64,000 nt of DNA from Bryobacteraceae bacterium CoA2 C42 (lineage in GTDB: Bacteria > Acidobacteriota > Terriglobia > Bryobacterales > Bryobacteraceae): positions 1-64,000 of the forward strand of contig JAINDL010000029.1 of the NCBI GenBank assembly GCA_019931245.1. The letters are read 5' to 3'. The position numbers and the translations under genes were made by a program. Within the stretch, counting starts at the first letter, position 1. The number at the start of each line of letters is the position of its first letter. Below, piece after piece: positions 43,137 through 64,000 of the stretch. The notes below the pieces were generated by a model. It had not been told where the DNA came from and made no database searches. It saw nothing but the letters and a program-made list of their open reading frames with translations.

Positions 43137-44186
43137 ATGTCACAGATTAAAGGTCCCGCATTGTTCCTCGCGCAGTTCATGGGCGACGAGGCTCCTTTCA
43201 ATTCTCTTCCCGCCATCACGGAGTGGGCGAAGTCGCTCGGTTACCTCGGCGTGCAGCTCCCTTCGTGGGATAGCCGCATCATGAACCTCGAGAAGGCCGC
43301 GAAGTCCAAGACTTACTGCGATGATCTCAAGGGCCAGACCAACGGGCTGGTGATCACCGAACTGGCGTCGCACCTGCAGGGGCAGTTAGTGGCGAGTCAT
43401 CCGGCTTACGACGAACTTTTTGATGTCTTCGCGGCGTCCGAGGTGCAAGGCAACCCGGCGGCGCGGAGCGAGTGGGCCGTGAAGCAGTTGAAGCTGGTAA
43501 TCAAGGCTTCGGCGAACCTGGGCCTGAAGGTGACGCCGTCGTTCTCCGGCGCGCTGCTGTGGCCGACCATTTATCCGTGGCCGCAGCGTCCGGCGGGGCT
43601 CGTCGAAGAGGGCTTCAAGGAGCTGGCCAAGCGGTGGAAACCGATTCTGGACTTCGCCGACCAGCACGACGTGGATTTCGCCTACGAGCTGCACCCGGGC
43701 GAGGATCTGTTCGACGGCGCCACGTTTGAGCGCTTCCTCGAAGCCACGGGCAACCATCCGCGGGTCCATATCAACTATGACCCGTCGCACTTCGTGCTGC
43801 AGTGCATGGACTATGTCGGATTCATCGACGTTTATGCGAGCCGCATCAAGGCCTTCCATGTGAAGGACGCCGAGTTCCGGCCTTCGGCCAAGGCGGGCGT
43901 TTATGGGGGTTACTTGAACTGGCAGGAGCGGCCGGGGCGGTTCCGCAGCCTGGGCGACGGGCAGGTGGACTTCAAGCAGGTGTTTTCGCGGCTGACGGCG
44001 GCGGGCTATGCAAGCTGGGCCGTGCTCGAATGGGAGTGCTGCTTTAAAGACAGCGCGCAGGGGGCGGCGGAGGGGGCTCCGTTTATCGCCTCGCACCTGA
44101 TTGATGTCCCGAAGAAGGCGTTTGACGATTTCGCGGGCGCTTCGAGCGATGCCAAGCGGAACCGGCGCATTCTGGGACTGAAATAA
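43137..44186 (+). CDS. Sugar phosphate isomerase/epimerase (TIM barrel)
   Basis: A 349-residue xylose-isomerase-like TIM barrel. Visible are GYLGVQLPSWDSRIMNLEKA near the start, ELASHLQGQLVASHPAYDEL (metal histidine region), FAYELHPGEDLFDG (Glu, His), VHINYDPSHFVLQ (Asp), IKAFHVKDAEF (His-x-Lys-Asp) and a closing WAVLEWECCF (Glu). Cytoplasmic. AGGGT precedes the ATG. Codons are C-ending. The sequence is only distantly similar to the TIM barrel at 40679. Substrate unknown. Confidence 0.92.
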   Translation: MSQIKGPALFLAQFMGDEAPFNSLPAITEWAKSLGYLGVQLPSWDSRIMNLEKAAKSKTYCDDLKGQTNGLVITELASHLQGQLVASHPAYDELFDVFAASEVQGNPAARSEWAVKQLKLVIKASANLGLKVTPSFSGALLWPTIYPWPQRPAGLVEEGFKELAKRWKPILDFADQHDVDFAYELHPGEDLFDGATFERFLEATGNHPRVHINYDPSHFVLQCMDYVGFIDVYASRIKAFHVKDAEFRPSAKAGVYGGYLNWQERPGRFRSLGDGQVDFKQVFSRLTAAGYASWAVLEWECCFKDSAQGAAEGAPFIASHLIDVPKKAFDDFAGASSDAKRNRRILGLK

Positions 44187-44187
44187 G

Positions 44188-45186
44188 CTAGCCGCCGATG
44201 GAGTACATCGGCCGCGGGGGCGCCACAAATTTTTGGGTGTTGATCTCGTGGCCGATCCACTTCCGCGCTACCGTCTCCCGGATGGTAGCGCGGATTGCGT
44301 CGTCGGAGGCGTTGCTGCGCAGGAGGCCTTTGACATCGGTCTCTTCGATGGCGAACAGGCAGTAGCGCAGCTTGCCGTCCGAGGTGAGGCGGATGCGGTT
44401 GCAGTTGAGGCAGAAGGGGTGGCTGACGGAGCTGATGAAGCCGATGCGGCCGATGCCGTCGGTGAAACGGAACTCGCTGGCGGGGGCGCGGGGGTCGCGA
44501 TCGGGAATCTCGGCGAGGGGGCCGATGCCGGCGGCGAGGAGGGCGAGCATGTCGTCCTGGAGGAGAACCTTCGACTTATCCCAGAGGCCTTGGGCGTCGA
44601 GGGGCATGAACTCGATGTAGCGGATTTCGATGCCTCGCTCGCGGCCGAATTGGGCCAAGGGTACGATGTCGGGTTCGACGAGGTTTTTGACGGCGACGGC
44701 GTTGATCTTGATGGGGCCGAAGCCGAGGGATTGGGCTTTGTCGAGGCCGGCGAGGACTTTGGGGAGGTCGTCGCGGCGGGTGATGTGGGCGAAGCGGGCG
44801 CGGTTGAGGGTGTCGAGGTGGACGTTGAGGCGGCGGAGGCCGGCGCGGTAGAGATCTTCGGCCTGGTCGGCGAGGAGGACGGCGTTGGTGGTGAGAGCGA
44901 TGTCCTCGACGCCGGGGATGGCGGTGAGCTTTTCGATGAGAACCGGAAGATCTTTGCGGACGAGGGGTTCGCCGCCGGTGATGCGGAGTTTGCGGACGCC
45001 GAGCGAGACGGCGACGCGGGCGAAGCGGGCGATTTCCTCAAACGAGAGGATCTCTTCGCGCGGCATGAACTTGACGCCGTCTTCGGGCATGCAGTAGAAG
45101 CAGCGGATGTTGCAGCGGTCGGTGACGCTGATGCGCAGGTTGTCGTGCAGGCGGGCGAAGGCGTCGATGAGGGGTGCTTCGGCCAT
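44188..45186 (-). CDS. moaA: GTP 3',8-cyclase MoaA
   Basis: A 332-residue radical-SAM enzyme that rearranges GTP in the first step of molybdopterin synthesis. The N-terminal cluster is CNIRCFYC (C25, C29, C32), LRITGGEPLVRKDL binds SAM, the GTP-binding second cluster is CLNCNRIRLTSDGKLRYC (C-x2-C-x13-C), and the C-terminus ends in the required Gly-Gly (MYSIGG). Its ATG directly abuts the nadA stop codon without intervening bases. Convergent with the TIM-barrel gene 1 bp away. Confidence 0.97.
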   Translation of the reverse strand: MAEAPLIDAFARLHDNLRISVTDRCNIRCFYCMPEDGVKFMPREEILSFEEIARFARVAVSLGVRKLRITGGEPLVRKDLPVLIEKLTAIPGVEDIALTTNAVLLADQAEDLYRAGLRRLNVHLDTLNRARFAHITRRDDLPKVLAGLDKAQSLGFGPIKINAVAVKNLVEPDIVPLAQFGRERGIEIRYIEFMPLDAQGLWDKSKVLLQDDMLALLAAGIGPLAEIPDRDPRAPASEFRFTDGIGRIGFISSVSHPFCLNCNRIRLTSDGKLRYCLFAIEETDVKGLLRSNASDDAIRATIRETVARKWIGHEINTQKFVAPPRPMYSIGG

Positions 45187-46119
45187 TTACTTCACGGCGA
45201 GCATGCGTTCGATGGGCAGGCGGGCGCGTTCCATGAGTTCGGGGGAGAGTTCGACGCGGGGGGCGAGGGAGGCGAGACAGTCATGAAGCTTTTCTAATGA
45301 ATTTTTCTTCATGTATGGACATTCGCTGCAGTTACAGTTTTCGTTGGTGACGAAGTAGAACTGTTTGTGGGGGGCGAATTTGCGGAGCGAGTGCTGGACG
45401 CCGCTTTCGGTCATGACGATGAAGGAGTTGCGCTCGCTTTCGATGCAGAACTTGATGAGGGCGGAGGTGGAGCCGATGAATTCGGCCTGGCTGAGGACGT
45501 TGGCGGGGCATTCGGGGTGGGCGACGACCATGGCTTCCGGATGGGCGGCGCGGGCTTCCATGACCTTACGAGCGGCGAAGGTGGTGTGGACGATGCAGGC
45601 GCCCTGCCAGATGCGCATATTTTCGCGGCCGGTCTGTTGTTTGACGTAGTTGCCGAGGTTACTGTCGGGGAGGAAGAGGATGGGTTGGTGGGCGGGGATG
45701 GAGTTGACGACCTTGACGGCGTTGGACGAGGTGCAGATGATGTCGCTTTCGGCCTTTACGTCGATGGAGGTGTTGATGTAGCTGACGACGACGTGGTCCG
45801 GGTACTTGCGTTTGAAGGCGCGGAGCATGTCGACCGGGCAGCTGTCGACGAGCGAGCAGCCGGCTTCGCGGTCCGGGACGACGACGGTGCGGGTGGGGTT
45901 GAGGGCCTTGGCGGTTTCGGCCATGAACCAGACGCCGCAGAAGGCGATGACTTCGCAGTCGAGTTCCCGGGCCTTGCGGGCGAGTTCGAGGCTGTCGCCG
46001 ATGACGTCGGCGAGTTCCTGGATCTCGGATTCCTGGTAGTGGTGGGCGAGGATGACCGCGTTGCGTTGGCGCTTCAGCGCGAGGATCTCGTCGGCGATGC
46101 CGGCACTGACTGGAGTCAT
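45187..46119 (-). CDS. nadA: Quinolinate synthase NadA
   Basis: A 310-residue 4Fe-4S enzyme condensing iminoaspartate with dihydroxyacetone phosphate to quinolinate. Family features are VILAHHYQESEIQELADVIG with His residues, the cluster cysteines in VIAFCGVWFMAE, AHPECPANVLSQA and NCNCSECPYMKKN, and the internal VSYINTSIDVKAESDIICTS and MRIWQGACIVH. It is the partner of nadB at 33277 but at a separate locus, here with moaA, also an iron-sulfur enzyme. Divergent from the TIGR03437 protein; the 65-bp gap contains an AT-rich CTATATAGTAT stretch. Confidence 0.97.
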   Translation of the reverse strand: MTPVSAGIADEILALKRQRNAVILAHHYQESEIQELADVIGDSLELARKARELDCEVIAFCGVWFMAETAKALNPTRTVVVPDREAGCSLVDSCPVDMLRAFKRKYPDHVVVSYINTSIDVKAESDIICTSSNAVKVVNSIPAHQPILFLPDSNLGNYVKQQTGRENMRIWQGACIVHTTFAARKVMEARAAHPEAMVVAHPECPANVLSQAEFIGSTSALIKFCIESERNSFIVMTESGVQHSLRKFAPHKQFYFVTNENCNCSECPYMKKNSLEKLHDCLASLAPRVELSPELMERARLPIERMLAVK

Positions 46120-46184
46120 AGAAATTAGAGAAACGCGGTAGGAAGCCCGCCTCTCTATATAGTATCCTGCCGGGGGAGCACAGA

Positions 46185-48299
46185 ATGGATTTGCGGCTAT
46201 GGGGTTTGCTGATGGTGACGGCGGCGGGGGCTTGGGCCCAGGCGGCGGGGGTGAACTGCCGGGCGGCGGCGGTGCCGGCGATTGTGCGGGTGGAGGGGTT
46301 GAGCGAGCGGGTGGGCGATATGGTGCTGAACTGCACGGGCGGGGCGCCGGGGGCGACGCTGCGGGGCGAGTTGACGCTGATCTCGTTTGATGGGCCGGTG
46401 ACGAACCGGCTGCTGGCGAACAGCGCGCTGGATATTGTGGTGACGGCGAACAACGGGTCCGGGGAGGCGATTGTGAATACGACGGCGCAGGCGGTGGCGG
46501 CCAACCAGGTGACGCTGGGGGGCTTGCAGGTGGTGCTGTCGGCGACCGGGACGGTGGCGCTGCGGATTACGAACGTGCGGATTGCGCCGCCGAGCGCGAC
46601 TGAGCAGGCGGTGCGGGTGGCGCTGGCGTCGGTGGCGGCGGGGCCGATCCGGACGGATGCGGCGCCGTTTACGGTGGGGATTACGCAGCGGGGGCTGTTG
46701 GCGACGTATGCGACGACGTTTTTGTGCACGCAGTCGCGGCTGCCGGAGGTGGTGAACTTTGGGGAGTTTGTGCGGCGCGGGGTGCGGTTTGCTTCGGTGC
46801 GGTTGACGGAGGGGTTTGCGAGCGCGTTTGAGCGGCGGGGTCCGCAGACGGACGCGGGGACGCGGCTGCTGGTCCGTTACTCCGGGTTTCCGGCGGGGGC
46901 GCGGCTGTTTACGCCGGCGGTGGTGGTAGGTTCGAACGGGGCGACGCCGACCTCGGCCGGGGATTTGGGGCTGCCGGTGAGCGGGGGCCGTTATTTTTCG
47001 GGGCTGGGCGGGCAACTGCTGCTGGCGCGGGTGGGGGGCGCCGATCTGGCGGGGTCGGGGGGAACGCCGCTGTTTACGCCGAGCGGCGGGGTGGGGATAA
47101 CGGAGTTTGATCTTGTGGCGGAGGTGCCGCTGGTCAACGGAGCGGGGGCGGCGGTGTTTGAGGTGATGGACAGCGCGGCGAATCTGCGCGAGTCGGCGCA
47201 GGTGCCGACGTTTTTGATTCTGGAGCAGCGGCCGGAGGGGGGTTCGGCGCGGGCGGGCGTGGCCTTACACCTGGGGCCGCTGTCGAACGCGGCGGCGCCG
47301 AGCGTGATTGCTCCGGTGCCGCGGTTTCAGGAGGTGGCGCCGCCGGGCGACTGCACGGCGCTGGGGGACTGCGATGCGAACCTGTTTCCGCGGCTGGCGG
47401 TGGAGTCGGCCGAACTGACCTACGATGTGCTGATTGGTTCGAGCGGACAGACGCGGTACATCCGGGTGCTGAACCAGGGGGGTGGGGTGATGGCTTGGGC
47501 GGCATCGGTCGTGTATCGCCAGGGGAGCGGATGGCTTCGCCTGGACCCGGAGAGCGGGGTGAACAACGCGACGATACGGCTTGATGCGGTAGCGGACGCC
47601 GGCTTTACGCCAGGGACCTACGAAGCGGCGGTAGTGATCGACGCGGGTCCGCTGGCGGGCACCCGGCAGGCCACGGTCCGGATGGTGGCGCGGGAGCGCA
47701 CCACCCCGCCGGCGCCGGCCCCGGTGGTGACGGGGGTGACGCACGGGGCGTTCCAGGATGGGCCGCTGGTGCCCGGGTCGCTGGGGACGGTTTTCGGGCA
47801 AAACCTGGCGGGCACGGCAGTCCGGGTGACCATGGACGGGCTGGAGGGGGGCATTCTCTATGGCGACAGCCGGCAGATCAACTTTCAGCTACCGCCCGGG
47901 TTAGCGGGGCGGGCGAGCGCGCAGTTGATTGTGACAGTCGATAGTCTGCAGTCGACGCCGCGGGCGGTGGCGCTGGCGACATCGAACCCCGGGGTGTTTC
48001 CGGGCGCGATTTTGAATCAGGACAACTCCGGGAATGCACCGGACAACCCTGCGGAAGCGGGCAGCGTGGTGCAGGTATTCCTGACGGGATTAACCGAGAC
48101 GGGCGCGACGATGCGGGTGCACGACCGGGCATTTACCGAGGCACTATACGCAGGCCCGGCGCCGGGGTTGATCGGGGTGCAGCAGGTGAATGGGCGGATT
48201 CCACCGGACCTGCATACGATCACGAGCGACCTCGTCATCTGTGCGAGGGCGAACTGCAGCGCTCCGCGGCGGATTTCCGTGCGTCAGAGCAGTCGCTAG
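46185..48299 (+). CDS. Secreted protein with BACON-like and TIGR03437-like C-terminal domains
   Basis: A 704-residue secreted protein. A signal peptide (MDLRLWGLLMVTAAGAWAQA) is followed by about 390 residues of beta-rich, valine/alanine-rich sequence without recognised domains and with a cysteine pair (VNCRAAA, VLNCTGG). A BACON-like beta sandwich follows (about 405-490; IGSSGQTRYIRVLNQGGGVM), then a TIGR03437-like domain (about 505-695; GTVFGQNLAG, YGDSRQINFQLP, NPGVFPGAIL, AEAGSVVQVFLTGLTETG) typical of Solibacter-type acidobacteria. GGGGGAG precedes the ATG. Function unknown; adhesion or extracellular binding is a guess. Confidence 0.88.
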   Translation: MDLRLWGLLMVTAAGAWAQAAGVNCRAAAVPAIVRVEGLSERVGDMVLNCTGGAPGATLRGELTLISFDGPVTNRLLANSALDIVVTANNGSGEAIVNTTAQAVAANQVTLGGLQVVLSATGTVALRITNVRIAPPSATEQAVRVALASVAAGPIRTDAAPFTVGITQRGLLATYATTFLCTQSRLPEVVNFGEFVRRGVRFASVRLTEGFASAFERRGPQTDAGTRLLVRYSGFPAGARLFTPAVVVGSNGATPTSAGDLGLPVSGGRYFSGLGGQLLLARVGGADLAGSGGTPLFTPSGGVGITEFDLVAEVPLVNGAGAAVFEVMDSAANLRESAQVPTFLILEQRPEGGSARAGVALHLGPLSNAAAPSVIAPVPRFQEVAPPGDCTALGDCDANLFPRLAVESAELTYDVLIGSSGQTRYIRVLNQGGGVMAWAASVVYRQGSGWLRLDPESGVNNATIRLDAVADAGFTPGTYEAAVVIDAGPLAGTRQATVRMVARERTTPPAPAPVVTGVTHGAFQDGPLVPGSLGTVFGQNLAGTAVRVTMDGLEGGILYGDSRQINFQLPPGLAGRASAQLIVTVDSLQSTPRAVALATSNPGVFPGAILNQDNSGNAPDNPAEAGSVVQVFLTGLTETGATMRVHDRAFTEALYAGPAPGLIGVQQVNGRIPPDLHTITSDLVICARANCSAPRRISVRQSSR

Positions 48300-48325
48300 T
48301 TCACCGGTAAGCCGAAGCTGGGGTG

Positions 48326-48850
48326 CTATGGTCCTGCTCGCTGGACCAGGCGAGGGCCGGAAACGAACGGGGGCTCCGGAGCGGGGAGGATACTGTCCGA
48401 GAGGGGTGGGGCGGCGCCTTGTTCGGCATTGAAGACCGACAGTGCCTTGGCCAGACGGCCCAGATCGCCATGTTCGTCCACCATCATTTCGTGCTCTACC
48501 CAATTCGACAGGGGAATATTGCGGAAGAAGAGCCGCTCCTGCAGGACCATCGTGCGCTTGGCGGCCCTAGGGGACTTGGATTCGCGGACGTAGTGGCGCT
48601 CCTCTACTCGGATATCGGCCAGGAAGCTGTCGAGCGAGCGGCGCTTGACCTCTTCTTCAGCCGCGCGGACTTTGTCCTCGAGGCCCTGCTGCTGCGCGTG
48701 GAGCTGGGCTTGCAGCTTGGCGATGGACTCACGTTCCAGTGAGACCGCCACTTCGAGGCGGGCCTGCATCACAAAGTAGGAGAGGAGCGACGAACCGGCC
48801 GCGATGAACAAAGGCAGCAAAATCCAGAGGAGACCGTCAACTGGCATCAT
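48326..48850 (-). CDS. Membrane-anchored coiled-coil hypothetical protein
   Basis: A 174-residue protein: a short N-terminus, one transmembrane segment (GLLWILLPLFIAAGSSLLSYFV), a coiled coil of about 55 residues (ARLEVAVSLERESIAKLQAQ, then LHAQQQGLEDKVRAAEEEVK), a small basic/polar region (FLADIRVEERHYVRESKSPR) and a proline-rich tail. Topology resembles small division or envelope-organising coiled-coil proteins, but I recognise no family. Two adjacent ATG codons begin it (48850 chosen). Confidence 0.75.
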   Translation of the reverse strand: MMPVDGLLWILLPLFIAAGSSLLSYFVMQARLEVAVSLERESIAKLQAQLHAQQQGLEDKVRAAEEEVKRRSLDSFLADIRVEERHYVRESKSPRAAKRTMVLQERLFFRNIPLSNWVEHEMMVDEHGDLGRLAKALSVFNAEQGAAPPLSDSILPAPEPPFVSGPRLVQRAGP

Positions 48851-48989
48851 GCTGGAGTGATCGGCAGAACGATCGAAAAACTTGCCAACTGGCCATCAAT
48901 TTTAGTTTCACCTTGGAAACACCCTAGAAGGACCGGTTATTTGGCAGCGTCTGCCGTACCGCATTGCCCAAACATCCGACCACCGCCCA

Positions 48990-49039
48990 CTCGCTTGCCG
49001 GTTCTGACTGCCGAGAGTCAGCACCGGAGCGCAAGCGAG
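48990..49039. other. Long nested stem-loop in a 257-bp gene-free gap
   Basis: In the gap 48851-49107 the only structure I see is this hairpin. CTCGCTTGC (48990-48998) pairs with GCAAGCGAG (49031-49039), CGGT (48999-49002) with ACCG (49023-49026), and CTGACT (49004-49009) with AGTCAG (49016-49021), leaving a 6-base loop and a 4-base bulge. It lies 3' of the receptor gene and 5' of the coiled-coil gene on the minus strand, with no T-tract on either side. It may be a processing or stability element, or a repeat remnant. The rest of the gap shows nothing. Confidence 0.6.
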
Positions 49040-49107
49040 CCCCGGGTGGGGCTGCGCGGAAGCGTGAGAGCGAATGGAGGACGGTTCCAGGCTGCCGACG
49101 GCAGGGG

Positions 49108-51336
49108 TTAGAATTGCACGATCAGGCCGAGGCTATATCCGCGTCCAATCTGATTCAGCGATGTTTCGCTGAGTACGCGGCCGGTACGCGGATCAAACGA
49201 TTCCAGGCCCACAAAACCGCGGTTTCCCCGATTGAGCAGGTTGATTCCTTCGAGAATCACGGTCCAGCGCGTTGGCCCGAGATGGATACTTTTGTTCAGC
49301 CTAAGGTCGAACCGGCTGTAAGGCGGCAAGCGGAGTTGATTTCGGTCGCTGGCGAGGAAAAGCGTGCCGTCGACCTTGCGGAAGAAGCCGGCTTCCGGTT
49401 GCCCGCTGCCGTAACGCCACAGGCTGCTTAAGCTCCAACTTTGCGAAAGGCGGTAGAGCCCGAAGGCGGTGGCGGTGTGACGTTGGTCGAAGTCGGTGGG
49501 AAAGCTTAAGCCCGTTGTATTCTCCCGCAGGCGAGTCTGCAGCCAGCCATAAGAGAGCCAGCCGGAGAAGCGATTGCCGCTCCGGCGCTGCAGCATGATT
49601 TCCAAACCGTTCGCGTGGCCGTTGACTGCGTTGAGCGGCAGGCCGGCAAGGGAGACGACGCGATTGTTAATCAGCCGGGGTTCGTCCAACGCAAAAATCT
49701 GCCGGCGGTCTTCGCGCCGGAAAAGTTCCAGCGTGAGTCGTGCCTTCTCACCTACGGGATAATCGAGGCCGAGCGTGAAATGATCGGAGCGTTCGGCTAC
49801 GAGCGCAGGATTGCCGTCGCGGCTCAAGAGTTGCGCGAGCGGGGCGAATTGGTAGTGGCGTCCGAAGCCCGCGCGGAGGGCACCACCGAAGCGACCCGGT
49901 TTCCAAACAAGACCCGCGCGGGGAGAAACCAGGGTTTGCCGGGTGTAGCGGTCGTTTTCGAGGCGGGCACCGGCCGTCAGGCTCACATTCTCGCGGAGCG
50001 CAAGGGTGTCCTGCACATAGAAGCTCCGTTGCGTTGTCGAACCGCGGAAGCGATCGGCGAGAATCGGTTGGCGTACGGAAGGCAGATAGAACTGCGCTTC
50101 GCCCTCGGTAGCCACGGAACGGAGATAGGTGCCCGCCTCTACGCGGTGGCCAGCGGACTGCACCAACCAGTCGTGCCGGCCACCGAATTGGGTTTGTGGT
50201 TGGCGGGCCAGAAGGATCGCCTCCGCGTTGCGGGCACGGAGGCCGGCTTGCAGGGCAAAGACCTTGGTCTGGGCGATGGCGCGCGGCGAAAGCGTCCAAT
50301 CCCAACTGAGAACGGCCATGCCGTTGACCGAGTCCTGCTTCGTGGCGGTATTGAGGCCGAAGCGCTGGGTGCTCTGGCGATCATCGATGCGGAACCGTCC
50401 GCCTACGGCGGAGAAGCCGAGGCGATGGTGTGAGCTGGCGTCGAGGAGCAGCTTCACCTGGCCGTCGTCGAAAACGGTGCCGCCATCGCCTTCTTTAGCT
50501 GAAAGGCGGCGGACGTAGTCGAGCGCGCTGGAACGGTAGCCGACCAGGAAGGAACCGCGGCGGGTGAAGGGGCCATCGACCACGAGGGAGGTGCCGAGTT
50601 GCAAGCCGGTGCTGATGCGGGTGTCGATCTTCTGACGGTTGCCTTCGCGGGAGACGAGGTTGACCACGCCGCCGGTGACGAAGCCGTGCCGGGCGGGGAA
50701 AGCGGCGGGCAGGACGCTGATCTCCGCGATGCGGTCAGTAGGGATAATGGAGAATGAGCCGCGGTCGCGATCGTTGCCCACCGAGTCGCCGGAGATCAGG
50801 TGCTGAAAGCCGTCGATATAGATGCCGTCAAGCATGATGCCGGTGCGTTGGAAGCTGGCGCCGCGAATGGAGATTTCGCCCCGGAAGTCATCGGCCACGG
50901 TGACGCCGGGCAGTGCCTGCACGGAGCGCAGCGGATCGGCAATGAGGTTGGTGCCGAGCGCCTGCACTTCGGTCTTGTGGAGCGTGTACTCCGACGGGGC
51001 GGACTTGCCTTCGAGTCCGTCGAAAACACCGGCGGTGACGTTGACGACAGAACTGATGGTGCCGGCGTCGGGCTGCAGGAAGATCTCGACGTCCGTACCT
51101 CCCTCGGCAACTTCGATGGTCTTCTTGAGCAGGGCGTAGCTGGGCAGGGAGATACGCAAGCTGAGTTCGCCGGGCGTGGCGCCCGGGATGACAAAGTGGC
51201 CTTGGGCATCAGTGGAGGCCGTACCAGCCGGGGAAGCCACTCTGACGGCCGAGAGGGGCTCCTTGGTGCGGGCGTCCACCACGCGCCCGCGCACGTCTAT
51301 CGACAGGAGCAGGAGCATTAGCGTACCCAAAGCCAT
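49108..51336 (-). CDS. TonB-dependent receptor
   Basis: A 742-residue outer-membrane receptor. The start MALGTLMLLLLSIDVRG gives a short hydrophobic signal; there follow a carboxypeptidase-regulatory-like domain (about 15-90; GELSLRISLPSYALLKKTIE), a plug (about 110-235; DDFRGEISIRGASFQRTGIM, VTGGVVNLVSREG) and a barrel ending in YSLGLIVQF with terminal phenylalanine. The start lies inside the end of the beta-lactamase-type gene (19-bp overlap), so the receptor is translated with that secreted enzyme. Codons use more CGC/GCC and less CGG/GGG than the genes before 48 kb, hinting at a different origin. Confidence 0.93.
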   Translation of the reverse strand: MALGTLMLLLLSIDVRGRVVDARTKEPLSAVRVASPAGTASTDAQGHFVIPGATPGELSLRISLPSYALLKKTIEVAEGGTDVEIFLQPDAGTISSVVNVTAGVFDGLEGKSAPSEYTLHKTEVQALGTNLIADPLRSVQALPGVTVADDFRGEISIRGASFQRTGIMLDGIYIDGFQHLISGDSVGNDRDRGSFSIIPTDRIAEISVLPAAFPARHGFVTGGVVNLVSREGNRQKIDTRISTGLQLGTSLVVDGPFTRRGSFLVGYRSSALDYVRRLSAKEGDGGTVFDDGQVKLLLDASSHHRLGFSAVGGRFRIDDRQSTQRFGLNTATKQDSVNGMAVLSWDWTLSPRAIAQTKVFALQAGLRARNAEAILLARQPQTQFGGRHDWLVQSAGHRVEAGTYLRSVATEGEAQFYLPSVRQPILADRFRGSTTQRSFYVQDTLALRENVSLTAGARLENDRYTRQTLVSPRAGLVWKPGRFGGALRAGFGRHYQFAPLAQLLSRDGNPALVAERSDHFTLGLDYPVGEKARLTLELFRREDRRQIFALDEPRLINNRVVSLAGLPLNAVNGHANGLEIMLQRRSGNRFSGWLSYGWLQTRLRENTTGLSFPTDFDQRHTATAFGLYRLSQSWSLSSLWRYGSGQPEAGFFRKVDGTLFLASDRNQLRLPPYSRFDLRLNKSIHLGPTRWTVILEGINLLNRGNRGFVGLESFDPRTGRVLSETSLNQIGRGYSLGLIVQF

Positions 51337-53249
51337 ACTCCCTGGCGGCTGGAGCCGTCGGCGCTGGACAGTTCGACAAAGGCCCGCCCGGCGGAGGCGT
51401 TCGCGGGCACGCGTACGTTGAACTGGAGCACGCCCGCCACAAAGCCGGGTGCGGCGCCGGCGTACAGGACATCAGCGGCCTGGTCGCCGATGCGCGCGCG
51501 GGGGGCGTTGCGGAGCGCGTTGGCGCCGCTAGGCACCTCGCCGTCCTGGAGTACGGTAGAGAAGTTCTCAAGGCCCGAGCCCCACAGCGTGACGACGCTG
51601 CCACGCGCGGCGGGCGCCTGCTCGCCGTTGAGGGCGCCATCGCTATTCAGGGCGACGGCCAAGGCGCGGCCGTTGCCGGAAAGCGTGAAGACGCCGGGTG
51701 CGGTGTCGAGCACGGACGCCGTGAAAGTGGACGAGCGTTGACCGTTGCGAACTACTTCCACGCGCGCCAGGGCCCGGCCTTTCAAGGCCATGGGGGCGAC
51801 CGCGTTGATCTGGTTGCGCGAGACGTACAGCAAGGGCGCGGACAGGCCGTCGAAGAGCACCTCGACGCCGCCCAGCGAAGTGGCCACGCGGCCGCTTGAG
51901 TCGAGCCGGGTGCCGAGCGCTTCGACCGGACCGAGGTTCATGCCGTAGAGGGAGACGAGGCCGCCCGGGCTTACGCCCGCCACTTGAGCGGCCGCGCTGA
52001 CTGCTCCCGCGACGCGAGGCGCAGCCGACGGCAAAAACGAATCAAAGGCATCGCCGGTGGGCCACTGCCGGACACTGAGCAGGGTGCCGGCGATGGCTTC
52101 CAGCAATTCGTCGACCGCCGTCTCCGACTCCGGCAAGCCGTTGAACGTCATGGCAAAGCACACGCCGCCCAGGTCGCTGCGGTAGAGCAATGCGTAAGTC
52201 CCCTCGAGGGCGCCACTGTGGAGCCAGTCGAGGCTCGCGCCATTTTGCTCGAGCATCCAGCCTAGGCCATAGTAGCCACCGGTGGGCGTGAACGAGGGGC
52301 GGTTGGTCATCTGCCGGATGGTTTCGGGCCGCAAGAGCGCGGGTCCCTTGCGCCCGTCGACACCGTTGGCAAAGCGGACGAGGTCAATGGGAGAAGCGAT
52401 CCAGGCGCCAGCGCCCTGGATGACCTCAAAGTAGAAGCCGCCATCGGGTGCCGGCACTTCCGCGCCAATGCCCGGATAGAACGCGGGAAGCCGCGCCGCG
52501 GAGTAGTATTCGACTTCTCCCAGGCGCCGCTGCGCAGGGAGCGCGCCACCGAGCGCCATGCGCTGGATGCCCATCGGCTCCAGCACCGTGTCGCGCACGA
52601 GCGTTTCGTAGGGTACGCCCGCGACGCGTTCGATCAGACGGCCCAGCAACAGCATTCCGAAGTTGGAATAGGCGTAGCGCGTCCCGGGCTGAAACTGCAG
52701 CGGCTGCTTCGCCATAAAGCGAATCACATCGTCAACGGTCAACGGCTGGCGCAACGGCAGGGTGAGGCCCAGGCCCTCTACCACGGCGTAGCTCCCCAAG
52801 GGGTCGAAGGACGCTTCGGCATCCCAGCCACCGGAGTGCTGCAGCAGGTGGCGAACGGTGATCTGATTCCAGCGGGAATCGGCGAGAATACCGGCCGGCA
52901 GCACTGCGGTACCGAGCAGAGGGACGATCGGGGCGTCGAGCGACAAGCGCCCATCCTGGACAAGGCGCAACGTGGTCATGGATGTGATCGGTTTGCTGAT
53001 GCTGCCAATACGGAAAAGTGAATCGGGCTGGACGGGTGTCTTGAGCGCGGTATCGGCCAAGCCGAAGCCGCGGGCATAGACGAGGCGCCCACCCTGCGTT
53101 ACGGCGAGGGAGCCGCCGTTGGTTTTGGTCTTACCGAGGTAGTTGGTCATGGCCCGGTCGAGGGCGGCCAGGGCTGGTACGGCGGTACCGGTTTGGGCCG
53201 GTAGGACGGGGAGTAACGCGAGGAGGATTGCAAACAGTGGAAATCGCAC
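51318..53249 (-). CDS. Secreted beta-lactamase-fold serine hydrolase fused to TIGR03437-like domain
   Basis: A 643-residue exported protein. A signal peptide (MRFPLFAILLALLPVLPAQ) is followed by a class C beta-lactamase/penicillin-binding-type domain (about 25-400): SxxK at S83-K86 (GSISKPIT), the YxN motif Y194-S195-N196 (YAYSNFGML) and HSG in WLHSGALEGTY. Residues about 425-640 form a TIGR03437-like domain (VSPGGLVSLYGMNLGPVEAL, LYVSRNQINAVAPMAL, TAPGVF, GSVVTLWGSGLENF, FNVRVPANASAG). Esterase or D-aminopeptidase activity is more likely than antibiotic hydrolysis. It overlaps the downstream receptor gene. Confidence 0.92.
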   Translation of the reverse strand: MRFPLFAILLALLPVLPAQTGTAVPALAALDRAMTNYLGKTKTNGGSLAVTQGGRLVYARGFGLADTALKTPVQPDSLFRIGSISKPITSMTTLRLVQDGRLSLDAPIVPLLGTAVLPAGILADSRWNQITVRHLLQHSGGWDAEASFDPLGSYAVVEGLGLTLPLRQPLTVDDVIRFMAKQPLQFQPGTRYAYSNFGMLLLGRLIERVAGVPYETLVRDTVLEPMGIQRMALGGALPAQRRLGEVEYYSAARLPAFYPGIGAEVPAPDGGFYFEVIQGAGAWIASPIDLVRFANGVDGRKGPALLRPETIRQMTNRPSFTPTGGYYGLGWMLEQNGASLDWLHSGALEGTYALLYRSDLGGVCFAMTFNGLPESETAVDELLEAIAGTLLSVRQWPTGDAFDSFLPSAAPRVAGAVSAAAQVAGVSPGGLVSLYGMNLGPVEALGTRLDSSGRVATSLGGVEVLFDGLSAPLLYVSRNQINAVAPMALKGRALARVEVVRNGQRSSTFTASVLDTAPGVFTLSGNGRALAVALNSDGALNGEQAPAARGSVVTLWGSGLENFSTVLQDGEVPSGANALRNAPRARIGDQAADVLYAGAAPGFVAGVLQFNVRVPANASAGRAFVELSSADGSSRQGVWLWVR

Positions 53250-53359
53250 AAGGCCAGCGTAGGGGTCGGCCGGAAAAGCCGCATCGGCCGGAAGTCTCGA
53301 ATCGGTGTCATGCTTTTGGCGGAGGCGGCAGAGGCCTCACAGCCATTACACTGAAGACG

Positions 53360-54505
53360 ATGGAAGCTCGACCGCTGCTGTTCTGGGTTCGCTGGGGAGG
53401 CGTCTTCGTTTGTCTTGTCGCGGTCCTGATCTCGCAGACGGCTCCTTCTGTCAAGCCGCAACGCTGGCTGATCGCCGTCAGCCTGCTGCACGTAGGTTCA
53501 TTCCTCCGCGTCACCCGGCAGTTTCCTCCCGGCCCACGCTGGCCGACGGCCTGGCTTGTCTTGCAATTCGCACTTGCCTCGCTGCTTGATCAGGGCACGA
53601 CCTGGGTGGTAAATGCCCTCTCCGTCCCTCTGGCCGTGCCGCGCGAGGCACGCCGGCGTTGGTTGAGCATCGCGTTGGCATGCACGATGACCGGGACCGC
53701 GCTGAACATCTGGTGGAGCCTGCGCGGCGTCCCGCCGGAAAAGCTGCCTGGGCAGGAACTGGCGGTCACCTGGGCGTTGAGTTACTTCGAGACGCTGCTC
53801 TGGGGGGTGATCGCCTACGTTGCGTCCGGGCTGATTGTGAAGATGGAAGCCGATAAGCGGCAATTGGCGGCGCTCAACGCTGAGTTGATCAGTTCGCGCG
53901 CGATGTTGGCTGAATCGAGCCGGATGGCGGAGCGGTTCGACATCGCGCGCGAACTGCATGACTCGCTGGGGCATCACCTGACGACGTTGAACCTCGAACT
54001 CGAGATCGCCCAGCACTGCCCGCCGGTCGAGCGCGACGAACAGGTGCGCAAGGCGCAGTTCCTAGCCCGTCTGTTGTTGGCTGACCTGCGCGACACGGTG
54101 ACGTTGTGGCGGCGGGAACTGAGCGACGGGTTGCCGGAGGCTCTGCACAGCCTTTCCGCCGGAGTTTCCCACACGAAAGTACATGTAAGAATCGACCCGG
54201 AACTGCCCTCGCTGGCACCGCCGCGGGCGCACGCATTGCTCCGCTGCGCGCAGGAAGCATTGACGAATGCGTTGCGGCATAGCGGGGCTTCGGAAATCTG
54301 GATTGAGGCGGTGGCCGCTCCTGGGGAGGTGGAAGTGCGGGTGCGCGACAACGGTGTGGGTTCCGCGCGGATCTCGCCGGGCAACGGGCTGACGGGTATC
54401 CGTACGCGCGCGCAGGAACAAGGCGGGTCGGCCGCCTTCGAGTCACCGGTCTCGGGAGGATTCCTGCTGAGCGTGCGCATTCCGCAAACGGGAGACGCGG
54501 CGTGA
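53360..54505 (+). CDS. NarL-type membrane sensor histidine kinase
   Basis: A 381-residue kinase. About five transmembrane segments fill residues 8-160 (VFVCLVAVLI, WLIAVSLLHVGSF, AWLVLQFALASLL, WLSIALACTMTGTAL, YFETLLWGVIAYVASGLIV). A short coiled linker leads to a HisKA_3 dimerisation domain with phospho-acceptor H200 (IARELHDSLGHHLTTLNLEL) and a HATPase domain (CAQEALTNALRHSGASEIWI, VRVRDNGVG, NGLTGIRTRAQEQGG). I start at MEARPLLF. Overlaps its response-regulator gene by 4 bp. Divergent from the beta-lactamase-type gene with a 110-bp gap, which it may control. Confidence 0.94.
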   Translation: MEARPLLFWVRWGGVFVCLVAVLISQTAPSVKPQRWLIAVSLLHVGSFLRVTRQFPPGPRWPTAWLVLQFALASLLDQGTTWVVNALSVPLAVPREARRRWLSIALACTMTGTALNIWWSLRGVPPEKLPGQELAVTWALSYFETLLWGVIAYVASGLIVKMEADKRQLAALNAELISSRAMLAESSRMAERFDIARELHDSLGHHLTTLNLELEIAQHCPPVERDEQVRKAQFLARLLLADLRDTVTLWRRELSDGLPEALHSLSAGVSHTKVHVRIDPELPSLAPPRAHALLRCAQEALTNALRHSGASEIWIEAVAAPGEVEVRVRDNGVGSARISPGNGLTGIRTRAQEQGGSAAFESPVSGGFLLSVRIPQTGDAA

Positions 54506-55143
54506 TCCGGTTGCTGGTGGTGGAAGACGAGACGCTCTTTCGCGTGGGGCTGCAGAAACTGCTGAGTCTGCATGAAGAGTTCGAGATCATCGGAGAGGCA
54601 GCCGATGGGGAAGAGGCGGTGCGGGCCGCACAGGAACTGCGGCCCGACGCGGTGATTATGGACGTCCATCTACCGCGGTGCTCCGGTATTGTGGCCTTGG
54701 AAAAGTTGCGCGAGCTTGGCTTGCAAACGCCCGTGATTCTGCTGTCAACCTTCGACGAAGAGGACTCCTTTCTGAAGGGGATGCGCGCGGGCGCCAGCGC
54801 GTTCTTGCGCAAGGACGTCTCGTTTAATGATCTAGTGGCCACGATTCATGCCGCACTCCGTGGGGAACGCGTCTTCCGCCCCAGCATTACGGCCAAGGCG
54901 GCACAGCGGGCCTCGGCAATGAAACCTGCGTTTGACGTGCTGGATCTGCCCGATCCCCTCACCAAACGCGAGGTGGAGGTCCTACGCTTGATGGCCGCCG
55001 GGATGAGCAATAAGGAGATCGCCACTGCCTTGAGCGCGGGCGAGGCGACGGTGAAGAGCCATGTGTCGAGCGTACTGTCGAAGATGGGTGTGCGCGATCG
55101 GACGCGCGCGGTGCTGCGCGGGCTCGAACTGGGGTACGTCTGA
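54502..55143 (+). CDS. NarL/FixJ-family response regulator
   Basis: A 213-residue two-component regulator. The receiver has acidic pocket E8-D9-E10, phospho-acceptor D54 (DAVIMDVHLPRCSGI), the switch LLSTFDEED and lysine in FLRKDVS. A LuxR-type helix-turn-helix follows (about 150-210; LTKREVEVLRLMAAGMSNKE, IATALSAGEATVKSHVSSVL). The GTG start overlaps the kinase stop as GTGA. It is the last intact plus-strand gene before the relic integrase. Confidence 0.95.
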   Translation: MIRLLVVEDETLFRVGLQKLLSLHEEFEIIGEAADGEEAVRAAQELRPDAVIMDVHLPRCSGIVALEKLRELGLQTPVILLSTFDEEDSFLKGMRAGASAFLRKDVSFNDLVATIHAALRGERVFRPSITAKAAQRASAMKPAFDVLDLPDPLTKREVEVLRLMAAGMSNKEIATALSAGEATVKSHVSSVLSKMGVRDRTRAVLRGLELGYV

Positions 55144-55256
55144 TCAAGAACGTTTCCGCGACGGCCATCCGATATTCGGGACGCGCACCCAGATGAGGGC
55201 CTTCCCGCCTTCTCCTGTCCAGCGGTTGGCGGCGCGGTAGATGGCCATCGGCAGCT
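55144..55256 (-). other. Unassigned coding fragment beyond the integrase remnant
   Basis: Just past the integrase fragment's stop, a different minus-strand frame is open: DLKLPMAIYRAANRWTGEGG, then KALIWVRVPNIGWPSRKR, ending at a stop at 55144-55146. It may be a further, frameshifted piece of the same decayed element or of another gene. I recognise no family. Confidence 0.35.
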
Positions 55257-55450
55257 TCAGGTCCGCCCGCCGAGTCTTCGATTCGCGTAGAAGGTATCGA
55301 TGTCGGGTGCGGTGACCTGATTGAGCATCACGTATCCACGCGAGATGACCAGTGCGCGAATCTGCTTGGCGAACTTCTTATGCTTGCGTAGCGTCGACGC
55401 CGGGATGCCCGAGCCTTCGCGCACGGTGAGGAACGCACGAATAGCCTCAT
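55257..55450 (-). pseudogene. Tyrosine-integrase remnant, core-binding part
   Basis: Read on the minus strand this is EAIRAFLTVREGSGIPASTL, then RKHKKFAKQIRALVISRGY, then VMLNQVTAPDIDTFYANRR, ending in a stop at 55257. The pattern is the N-terminal SAM-like core-binding domain of phage-type tyrosine recombinases. The catalytic domain is absent. Its upstream half lies at 57098, on the other side of the IS element; when the element and one copy of the TCAT duplication are removed, the two halves join in one frame (ITPDEAIRAFL). A dead gene: insertion, nonsense codon and truncation. Confidence 0.82.
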
Positions 55451-55451
55451 G

Positions 55452-55464
55452 CTAAATCCGGCAT
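55452..55464. repeat. IS left terminal inverted repeat
   Basis: CTAAATCCGGCAT, exact reverse complement of 57084-57096. The direct repeat TCAT flanks at 55447-55450. Confidence 0.88.
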
Positions 55465-57045
55465 TTAGCCAGCGGTTTGGAGGCTGCTTCCGCCCTCCAG
55501 GGGGCCCGTGCCCCCGCAGAATTTCCAGAAAATCTGCCGGAACATCGTGGGCCATCGCTCGGCCGGTTCTAACTGCTCCGCATCATCCACAAACCGCCGT
55601 AAGTAGTTGCTGATCTTGCGCAAGTACTCCGCGATCGTCCTCGCCTTTCCGTGCACGCTCGTCATCTTCAACTTCACCGTCCGCGCATGTTCGGTCTGCT
55701 GCGCCACTCCCTCCATCCGCGACGGCCGCGTCGTGATCGCCTCCTGGTGCCGGTCCCCCGTCCCCATCCGCGTGTAGATCCCCCACCAGTTGTAAGTCAG
55801 CCCCACCAACCGCGCCATCAACCGGCTCCGCTTCAGATCCTTCGTCGTGTACCCCGTCCACCTCCACTGGTTCTTCAACTCATCGAACATGTTTTCGGCG
55901 TCCGCCCGGTCCCGGTAGGCCTGCGCCAGCACCCGCACATCGCTCTGCTCCCAACTCGTCACCAACACCGCATGCTCGTACCAATCCCCATCCGCCTGCT
56001 CGATGATGGTCCCCGGAAAACAGACCTGCCCCTTCCTCGTGCCCGAAGCCTGCAACGGCGGTTCCTTCAGCTTCTTCCGCAACACAATCACCCGCCGCTG
56101 GCGAGTCCAACCCTGCGACTGCAACTCCGTCTCCACGCCGAACCATCCCTGGCCGGCGTCCTGCCACTCCGCCTTCTAGTTTCTGGCCAGCCGGGCAATC
56201 GTCCGGGCGACATTCTGCGTCTGCCGCAGCTTGAATCGGTACGGCAACCGCCGTTCCTCTGCGCCCGCCATCATCTTCTCGTTGGCGTGCGCGATGTCGC
56301 CGCGAATCAAGGTGGGCCACAGCCTGCGGTCCCGCGCGTCGAGCCAGCCCCAAAGGGCCGGCTGGGCGTACTCGCTGGCTGATTGGTTGCCCGCCTGGGC
56401 ATCGACGTTGAGAACGAGTTTGCCCGCAGCGAGCACCATGACCTGATAGACATGCGAGGGCCGACCGGGCTTGGTGAGGTTGTAGCCGATACGCGCCTCT
56501 TCTTGGCGGCCATAGAGGGTTTTGATGGTCGCATCGAGATCGAGCACCCAGGATTGTTCGAGCAAGGGGGAAAAGGTGCGATCCATCTGCTGGTCGATCC
56601 AGGCGGTGACGGCTTCGTCATTAGCGCCTTCGAAGGCGCGGCGGACGCTGTCTTCACTGCGGAAGGTCTTGACGCCGAACAGGCCGGCCACGACGGCGTC
56701 GCCGGTGAGGGCGGTGATGTGGGAGTAGCGGCGTTGGCCGATGGGGATGGAGTAGACGATGGTGGCGAGTATTTCGGCTTTGCGGGGCGCGTGGGGACTG
56801 GAGTAAGTGAGGGGGCAGGAGTCGACGAACTCGGTCCAGGTGTCACTGGTTTTGAGAAAGTCGAGGAAGTAAGCGAGGAGACCGTGGCGGGTGACGGCGG
56901 GGGCCGGTTCCCAGTGGACTTCGACGGAGCCGCCGAAAGTGTCGACGCGGTGGGGCGGCGGGAAGGAGTCCGGGGAGGAAGAGGCTTCACCCTTTGGGTG
57001 AATAGCGGAAACGGGTTTGATCGCGTTTATCCCGTTTAGTATCAA
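55465..57045 (-). pseudogene. IS1380-like DDE transposase interrupted by an amber codon
   Basis: The frame would encode about 526 residues but has one TAG at 56176-56178. The first 289 residues include the two acidic motifs WVLDLDATIKTLYGRQEEAR and LIRGDIAHANEKMMAGAEER; the downstream 236 include the last acidic motif AENMFDELKNQWRWTGYTTK and RLMARLVGLTYNWWGIYTRM. Reading is in the same frame on both sides (ARLARN, stop, KAEWQDAGQGWFG). Probably inactive unless the stop is suppressed. Sequence is otherwise intact, so the inactivation looks recent. Confidence 0.88.
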
Positions 57046-57083
57046 TTACATCAAGGGCAAAATGTGCAAACGAAGGCCTCTCC

Positions 57084-57096
57084 ATGCCGGATTTAG
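57084..57096. repeat. IS right terminal inverted repeat
   Basis: ATGCCGGATTTAG, reverse complement of 55452-55464. The direct repeat TCAT follows at 57098-57101. Confidence 0.88.
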
Positions 57097-57097
57097 A

Positions 57098-57444
57098 TCA
57101 TCCGGGGTGATCGGCGAATTGGCAACGACCGCCGCGGAAGCCACCCGCGCCAGATCCGCCCCCGGAGGCAGGAGAGGGTGGGCTGGCACGGTCCACGATC
57201 CAGCGGACTCTCAGGCCGCAATGACCACCCTGGCCTCCGCCCAGTTGGACTTCTCCGTGTTCGCTGTTTTGAATTCTCCGCTGCGGGTGGTCGATGCGGG
57301 GATGGACAAACGACATTTCCGGGCGGCGGGCCGAAGTTCGCCGGTTCGCCCGTCAAACGTCCGTCCAAGTAAACAGCGAGATGCGCACCGACGCCAGGCA
57401 TCAAGAAAGAGCGACTGAGGCTCACACCGGCGCGCAGGGAGCAA
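57098..57444 (-). pseudogene. Tyrosine-integrase remnant, N-terminal part
   Basis: On the minus strand this frame reads GEFKTANTEKSNWAEARVVI, AA, a TGA at 57211-57213, then ESAGSWTVP and ADLARVASAAVVANSPITPD, continuing in phase into the fragment at 55257-55450. The segment resembles the arm-type N-terminal of integrases (a run like ST.T.N...A..IA.WE), where the TGA would replace a tryptophan codon. The first 50 or so residues from 57444 are low in resemblance, so the true start is unknown. About 50 bp separates it from the 3' end of tRNA-Ser. Confidence 0.7.
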
Positions 57445-57492
57445 AGTTGGCCGGAGAGCGAGGCTGAGATCGCTAACTCGATAAAAAGATTA

Positions 57493-57582
57493 TGGCGGTG
57501 AGGGTGGGATTCGAACCCACGGTACCCTTTCGGGTACGTCGGTTTTCGAGACCGATCGATTCAACCACTCTCGCACCTCACC
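57493..57582 (-). tRNA. tRNA-Ser (anticodon CGA)
   Basis: On the minus strand GGTGAGG pairs with CCTCACC, with discriminator G and encoded CCA at 57493-57495. The anticodon stem TCGGT/ACCGA holds the loop CTCGAAA, anticodon CGA, reading UCG. A long variable arm (GTACCCGAAAGGGTAC) and the T-loop TTCGAAT are present: class II tRNA, 90 nt with CCA. The 3' end faces the integrase relic, the usual orientation for a tRNA attachment site. Confidence 0.97.
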
Positions 57583-63319: not shown

Positions 63320-64000
63320 CGAACGCTTCGATGTCCTGGGTGAACCGGGCGAGGGCGCCTTTGACGCTGTAGAACATGTGGCCGGCTTCGTAGAGGCGGG
63401 TGGTGATGTTTCTGCGGTACTCGGCGGGCAGGCCCATGTGGCTGAAGGTGTAGTCGGTGGCGAAGTAGGGGGTGGCGAGGTCGTAGTAGCCGGAGCCGAT
63501 GTAGACCTTGAGATAGGGGTTTTTGGCGAAGGCGTCGCGGAGGGAGTCGGCGGTTTCGACGTAGCGGTTCTGGCCGGCGGGCCCGTAGTCCCAGGGGCCG
63601 ATGCCGCCGCCGAGGATGTAGTAGTGGAGGTCGGATTCGTAGCCGAGTTCGCGGCGGGCGTAGTCGTTGAAGGCGGCGGTGTAGGGGGCGCGGATGGCGG
63701 TGAGGGAGGGGTCGAAGCTGGGGGTTTCGTCGCTGTCGTTTCCTTCGGTGGCGGTGAGGCGGCCATCGAGGCGGCCGACGATTTTTCCTTCGGCGCGGCG
63801 GAGTTCCTTGGTGAACTGCATGATTCTGGGCCGGAGGTTGTTGCGTTCGAGATACTCTTTGCTCAGGCCGGTGAGGCGGCTGAGTTTGTCGAGGGTGGCC
63901 TGGCGTTCGGCGGGGGTGAGGCGGTCGCCTTTCATGAGGGCGACGGCGTACTCGTGCAGGGCGAACTTTTCGGCTTCGGCGGTCGCCTCTTTGAGCCCGG
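63306..64000 (-). CDS. Peptidase S10 (serine carboxypeptidase) family protein, partial
   Basis: The C-terminal 231 residues of a larger protein whose beginning lies beyond the window; the frame stays open to base 64000 (LKEATAEAEKFALHEYAVAL precedes MKGDRLTP). Motifs of the S10 carboxypeptidase C-terminus are LKVYIGSGYYDLATPYFATD, with the catalytic aspartate, and RLYEAGHMFYSVKGALARFT, with the catalytic histidine. The nucleophile serine would be upstream. These enzymes are usually exported; the signal peptide cannot be seen here. Confidence 0.88.
   Translation of the reverse strand, partial: GLKEATAEAEKFALHEYAVALMKGDRLTPAERQATLDKLSRLTGLSKEYLERNNLRPRIMQFTKELRRAEGKIVGRLDGRLTATEGNDSDETPSFDPSLTAIRAPYTAAFNDYARRELGYESDLHYYILGGGIGPWDYGPAGQNRYVETADSLRDAFAKNPYLKVYIGSGYYDLATPYFATDYTFSHMGLPAEYRRNITTRLYEAGHMFYSVKGALARFTQDIEAFVTRP

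Follow-up and report, generated by a model that had tools for sequence, protein, structure and literature searches.

An island at tRNA-Ser(CGA) in an environmental acidobacterium, with a dead tyrosine integrase probably split later by an IS1380-family element

The window (the whole stretch of 64,000 nucleotides that was analysed) comes from the draft genome of an environmental acidobacterium (G000; 6.07 Mb in 237 contigs), and the locus described here is very probably best explained as a whole by an island at a tRNA-Ser(CGA) gene, the death of its integrase and the later insertion of an IS element. We propose that a tyrosine integrase targeting tRNA-Ser(CGA) would have inserted a small island at the 3' end of this gene, its own gene probably sitting directly behind the tRNA, as comparison with intact relatives shows for them. 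The integrase gene then decayed: it now carries a nonsense codon and internal deletions, and its catalytic end is gone, all of which can be seen in the sequence. With the integrase dead and no distal attachment repeat left, the island would have been fixed in place. Later, as an IS-free relic and a reading-frame test show, an IS1380-family element entered the dead gene in this genome, and not in the same-genus genome G016, duplicating TCAT. This is a clear fossil of a process well known in kind, not a new system, and the block is probably foreign. Counting against the explanation are the absence of a tRNA-end copy at the far border, the TCAG and extra bases of G016, an ordinary GC content, a blank Pfam search and the long branch of the relic in a tree. 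The features are as follows.

48940..57492, no strand: complete island of 8553 bp (about 6.9 kb if the IS is not counted), not present in G010
49108..51336, minus: TonB-dependent receptor (PF00593/PF07715)
51318..53249, minus: PF00144 (beta-lactamase-fold) hydrolase with a Solibacter C-terminal domain (TIGR03437 over cut-off)
53228..54505, plus: histidine kinase (PF07730, PF02518)
54502..55143, plus: LuxR-type response regulator (PF00072, PF00196)
55144..55256, minus: integrase scraps LKLPMAIYRAANR and WTGEGGKALIWV, adjoining via internal deletions (gapped alignment)
55257..55450, minus: integrase relic, core-binding (SAM-like) part (profile match, frame test)
55447..55450, plus: TCAT, left copy of the 4-bp target duplication (sequence, frame test)
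55451..57097, minus (transposase strand): IS1380-family element, 1647 bp (PF13701, NF033539, end repeats)
57098..57101, plus: TCAT, right copy of the 4-bp target duplication (sequence, frame test)
57102..57411, minus: integrase relic, N-terminal part (profile match of the joined frame, reading frames, consensus)
57493..57582, minus: tRNA-Ser(CGA), proposed integration target (ARAGORN), its 3' end (57493 side) facing the island

Excision of 55451-57097 with one TCAT copy gave a single minus-strand frame from about 57411 to 55257 with one TGA inside. In a six-frame search this joined frame matched a profile made from six relatives at an E value of about 1e-37 (profile positions 5-168), and the alignment is gapless at the joint. 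Keeping one TCAT copy gave one frame of 119.5 bits, keeping none gave two frames of 65.0 and 45.8 bits, and keeping both gave two frames of 67.2 and 44.1 bits; exactly one copy therefore restores the phase of the relatives. Among 900 shuffled frames, 516 were reported, with a top score of 2.2 bits. Pfam gave no match to the joined peptide, and consequently the integrase assignment rests on the purpose-built profile; two of the integrase relatives were scanned and matched PF00589 at 4.5e-11 and 2.5e-10. By these comparisons, the N-terminal and core-binding regions of the relic are homologous to tyrosine integrases (PF00589). The catalytic residues of these enzymes are an Arg, a His-x-x-Arg motif and a Tyr. 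At the catalytic end of the relic there is no profile match beyond about position 255, and no counterpart was seen in the relic for the HRFRH and Tyr regions of relative A1. The relic belongs to the tyrosine integrase family as a remnant, not as a working member.

The in-frame TGA lies at 57211-57213 (coordinates read by eye), where the majority residue among the six relatives is Trp, although not invariant. The core-binding part undergoes a frame change and then meets a stop at 55257-55259. Past 55257, the scraps lie in another frame and can be aligned, across internal deletions, with regions further along in intact integrases. Their gapped alignment, from which two of the six reference integrases dropped out, scored 76 in the window and 91 in G016, and these scores were reached by none of 1000 dinucleotide shuffles in either; scored singly against the profile, they give weak matches of 0.8 and 2.2 bits. 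An earlier reading of the sequence alone had joined the two integrase halves in phase across this excision and placed a TGA in the N-terminal half, and both points hold. The frame that it followed to 55257 also stands, but the relic goes on to about 55144. The relic lies on the same (minus) strand as the tRNA-Ser(CGA) beside it. Integrase similarity begins at a distance of about 80 bp from the tRNA, not about 50 bp as that reading had it. Searching the joined frame for integrase similarity, as it had proposed, succeeded with the six-relative profile and came up blank with Pfam.

The inserted element has perfect inverted repeats of 13 bp, one base in from each end, and the only two exact occurrences of its end repeat CTAAATCCGGCAT in the 6.07-Mb draft assembly are those at the ends of this element. 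Elements of the IS1380 family duplicate 4-5 bp of their target. The element shares with this family (NF033539, PF13701) a transposase of the family in a single gene, short terminal inverted repeats and a 4-bp duplication, and belongs to it on these grounds, but it differs in that the transposase is broken by a stop codon. This is a TAG at 56176-56178, in frame, at a position where its G016 and G015 relatives carry Lys and Glu. Against PF13701, the first half of the transposase scores over the curated cut-off and the second half under it. Because the stop codon splits the protein, each half (4.9e-20 and 2e-9) also stays under the curated 180 bits of NF033539, which is a whole-protein cut-off. 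Relatives of the element elsewhere in the same genome are diverged or partial (66-90% identity), four of them at a contig end. The IS1380-like assignment and the TCAT duplication of the sequence-only reading are thus retained, with the correction that the transposase gene is itself interrupted.

The same relic, free of the IS, occurs in G016, a genome of the same genus, and provides the comparison with a related genome lacking the element that the earlier reading had pointed to. G016 matches the window to 55449 and then from 57105, with eight G016 bases between. The relics of G000 and G016 both carry the TGA and the internal deletions and have both lost the catalytic end, and these common lesions show that the integrase decayed before the IS came. 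Lesions found only in G016 are four extra bases at the IS site, an 18-base insertion and another stop, as a result of which the two parts of its relic fall into different frames. At the site itself G016 reads TCAG where the window has TCAT, so that three of the four duplicated bases match. The two relics are 92.6% identical (275/297) to the left of the IS site and 85.0% identical (323/380) to the right. Together, these sequence comparisons support the order already proposed from the window alone, in which integration would have been followed by decay and then by insertion of the IS. Neither of the two outcomes that the earlier reading named as refuting it has come about, since the joined frame resembles integrases and a related genome carries the site free of the IS.

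The probable island border suggested by the earlier reading could be mapped using an empty slot in G010, where 7 bp separate the tRNA end from DNA that matches the window from 48938 leftwards; the island accordingly covers 48940-57492. On the side of the tRNA away from the island lies dnaJ. The expected copy of the tRNA-Ser 3' end to the left, as an attachment site, was found neither at the border near 48940 nor elsewhere in the window. A search with 21 bp of the tRNA 3' end and up to three mismatches had the tRNA itself as its single window match, and the only other window match scoring at least 13, at 63694-63710, falls beyond the island. Across the whole assembly, an 18-base piece of the tRNA end has six matches with at most two mismatches, one of them exact (the tRNA itself) and none at the border. 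We also compared the window at 48940, TTTGGCAGCG, with the tRNA end in G010, ATGGCGGTGA, and the likeness is too weak for a decayed repeat. Since a tRNA-end copy is missing near 48940, paired repeats cannot tie the cargo to the integrase. Base composition was rejected as a mark of the island, which has 64.4% GC against 66.4% on its left and 64.1% on its right; 6.5-kb stretches across the window have 62.8-68.2%, a range within which the island falls. Of the signs that define a genomic island, an integrase beside a tRNA and an empty site in a relative are therefore present, and the far copy of the tRNA end is absent.

The same slot differs in other genomes. It holds about 0.8 kb of other DNA in G009 (L020 2422-3231) and about 1.3 kb of other DNA in G001 (L021 2409-3677). 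In G017 the tRNA is followed by an intact integrase, and a different contig holds a 27-bp copy of the tRNA end, located 2.2 kb beyond a stretch that matches window 45820-48865; this link spans two contigs, with part of the insert read.

Lying as they do between the tRNA and the border defined by the empty slot, the four cargo genes would have arrived with this integrase. The hydrolase was considered as a resistance gene and this was rejected, given that the class C beta-lactamase models score far under their cut-offs (among 25 of 44 families listed) and that the Solibacter C-terminal domain is present. A search with the hydrolase (E up to 1e-100) found an orthologue, at 97%, in one of 60 other genomes, which is G016; relatives at 43% are found in G001 and G009, on contigs other than that of the slot.

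Identity between G000 and G016 per 500 bp was at first sight a clean step at both island ends, a reading we rejected since 44001-46000 is also 93-96% identical, and synonymous sites were tested for this reason. The four cargo genes have dS values of 0.071-0.107. Among the backbone genes, the left neighbour has 0.416 (459 of 704 codons aligned), the four right-hand genes have 0.430-0.616 and seven more distant ones 0.169-0.280, giving a range of 0.17-0.62 over all 12. The low cargo dS suggests that the dead island was exchanged by homologous recombination. Both integrase copies carry the same lesions, from which we infer that, if the block was exchanged after the two hosts had split, homologous recombination rather than the integrase would have moved it. 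The contrast could also owe something to imported divergent flanks or to a different synonymous rate. That a dead block, with integrase and repeat lost, passed between related species by homologous recombination through its flanking genes is a serious possibility which we put somewhat below an even chance; if true, the tRNA slot would be an exchange site independent of the element's own enzyme. Exchange through recombination at flanking core genes is described for other bacteria in PMC5635113. The situation there is similar, with one slot whose contents vary between genomes and with highly diverged flanking genes, but that paper concerns 80 species, compared with one slot in one genus here. 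Two separate observations were made in the same comparison. The dN/dS of the cargo histidine kinase between G000 and G016 (0.049/0.071) is much above that of the other three cargo genes. The left-border gene at 46185-48299, blank in Pfam, is unusually divergent, with a dN of 0.075 to G016 and 0.058 to G010, part of it being aligned.

These values also bear on the strongest of the alternatives, that the relic is left over from an older island and that the four cargo genes came separately, for instance by homologous recombination at the flanks. Cargo dS far under that of both flanks, and under that of the distant backbone, would agree with this, as would the missing distal repeat, the common functions of the cargo and the different DNA in the slot of G009, G001 and G017. 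However, the block fills the space from the border of the empty slot up to the relic next to the tRNA, which is the layout of an integrase-borne island, and we regard separate arrival as possible but rather unlikely. Much less probable is that the block is ancestral backbone deleted in other genomes: deletion could equally yield the clean G010 junction, but the 7 bp to about 1.3 kb left between backbone and tRNA in G010, G009 and G001 are too short for the cargo, and the 97% hydrolase occurs in just one of the other genomes searched. Coincidence of the TCAT match and the in-phase joint between unrelated open frames can practically be dismissed, since, even with a chance of about 1 in 256 for a 4-bp match and a peptide that Pfam does not recognise, the frame test and shuffles oppose it and the adjoining of both relic sides in G016 has already refuted it.

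Our preferred explanation, an integrase-borne island whose integrase died before the IS came, places the locus among the tRNA-gene islands with a tyrosine integrase mapped by Islander (PMC4383910). It is like these in having an integrase beside the tRNA on the same strand and an island that extends from the tRNA to the border of the empty site, and a related island in G080 has the far repeat; it is unlike them in that the integrase is dead and the distal repeat was not found. Searches requiring both attachment sites and an integrase gene would consequently miss it, and yet an empty slot is enough to map an island that lacks paired repeats. What the locus offers is an ordered record of integration, integrase death and IS insertion in one tRNA island, with the steps pinned by relatives, and its low cargo divergence hints that dead islands may still be exchanged. 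Beyond the first reading, the analysis adds the extent of the island, the lack of a far repeat, the interruption of the transposase, the low cargo divergence and the tRNA-Ser habit described below.

Integrase matches (E up to 1e-60) were found in 26 of 257 genomes of the order, at 30 loci. Of these, 25 directly follow a tRNA on the same strand (22 tRNA-Ser and one each of Leu, His and Lys); the remaining five comprise one convergent tRNA-Ser and four loci without a tRNA, two of which (L080 and L085) start at most 145 bases from a contig end. Searching with the relic peptide matched nine of 120 genomes, and all seven loci scanned hold tRNA-Ser, likewise G000 and G016. A tRNA-Ser(CGA) is upstream in all seven named relatives, at least three of which are identical to loci among the 30, and in one of which (L050) the match spans only residues 272-400; the 30-locus, 120-genome and named-relative sets overlap. 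In this acidobacterial family, tRNA-Ser genes are thus a repeated target of one integrase group. The G017 integrase is identical to one in Candidatus Sulfopaludibacter sp. SbA3, an acidobacterium, and a literature search for Sulfopaludibacter and integrase together found no publication.

A tree was made of 29 rows, namely the relic and 28 of the 30 loci, leaving out L084 and L088, in which no single stretch covers 300 profile positions. The relic falls in a nine-row group with support of 100/99, in which the other eight rows are all behind tRNA-Ser(CGA). Its branch is long (1.53), and for this reason its exact place is unsure. In G080 the last 23 bp of the tRNA recur without mismatch 13 kb away, as the distal repeat of the intact island.

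Some minor observations concern these related loci. The integrase groups (L063-L092) largely track the serine tRNA isoacceptor, with one group mostly behind CGA (plus a Leu and a His case), a second behind GGA and GCT, and a CGA case (L086) outside both. G080 holds one integrase of each main group. Its island behind tRNA-Ser(CGA) (L040 1094-14414, G080:C3) has eight scanned open frames, of which two match Pfam (AEP-TOTE primase-like and DUF4917) and six do not. In G076, a 30-base copy of the tRNA-Ser end, 96.7% identical and on another contig (L052 4473-4502, G076:C53), is possibly the far end of an island. On the acidobacterial contig of L050, the match to integrase residues 272-400 (2905-3387) begins at most three bases after tRNA-Ser(CGA) and is perhaps a remnant. 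Finally, in the same genus as the window, the integrase of L027/L084 (G003:C37), at tRNA-Ser(CGA), is also broken, with most of the catalytic part gone, which indicates that decay beside this tRNA happened more than once.
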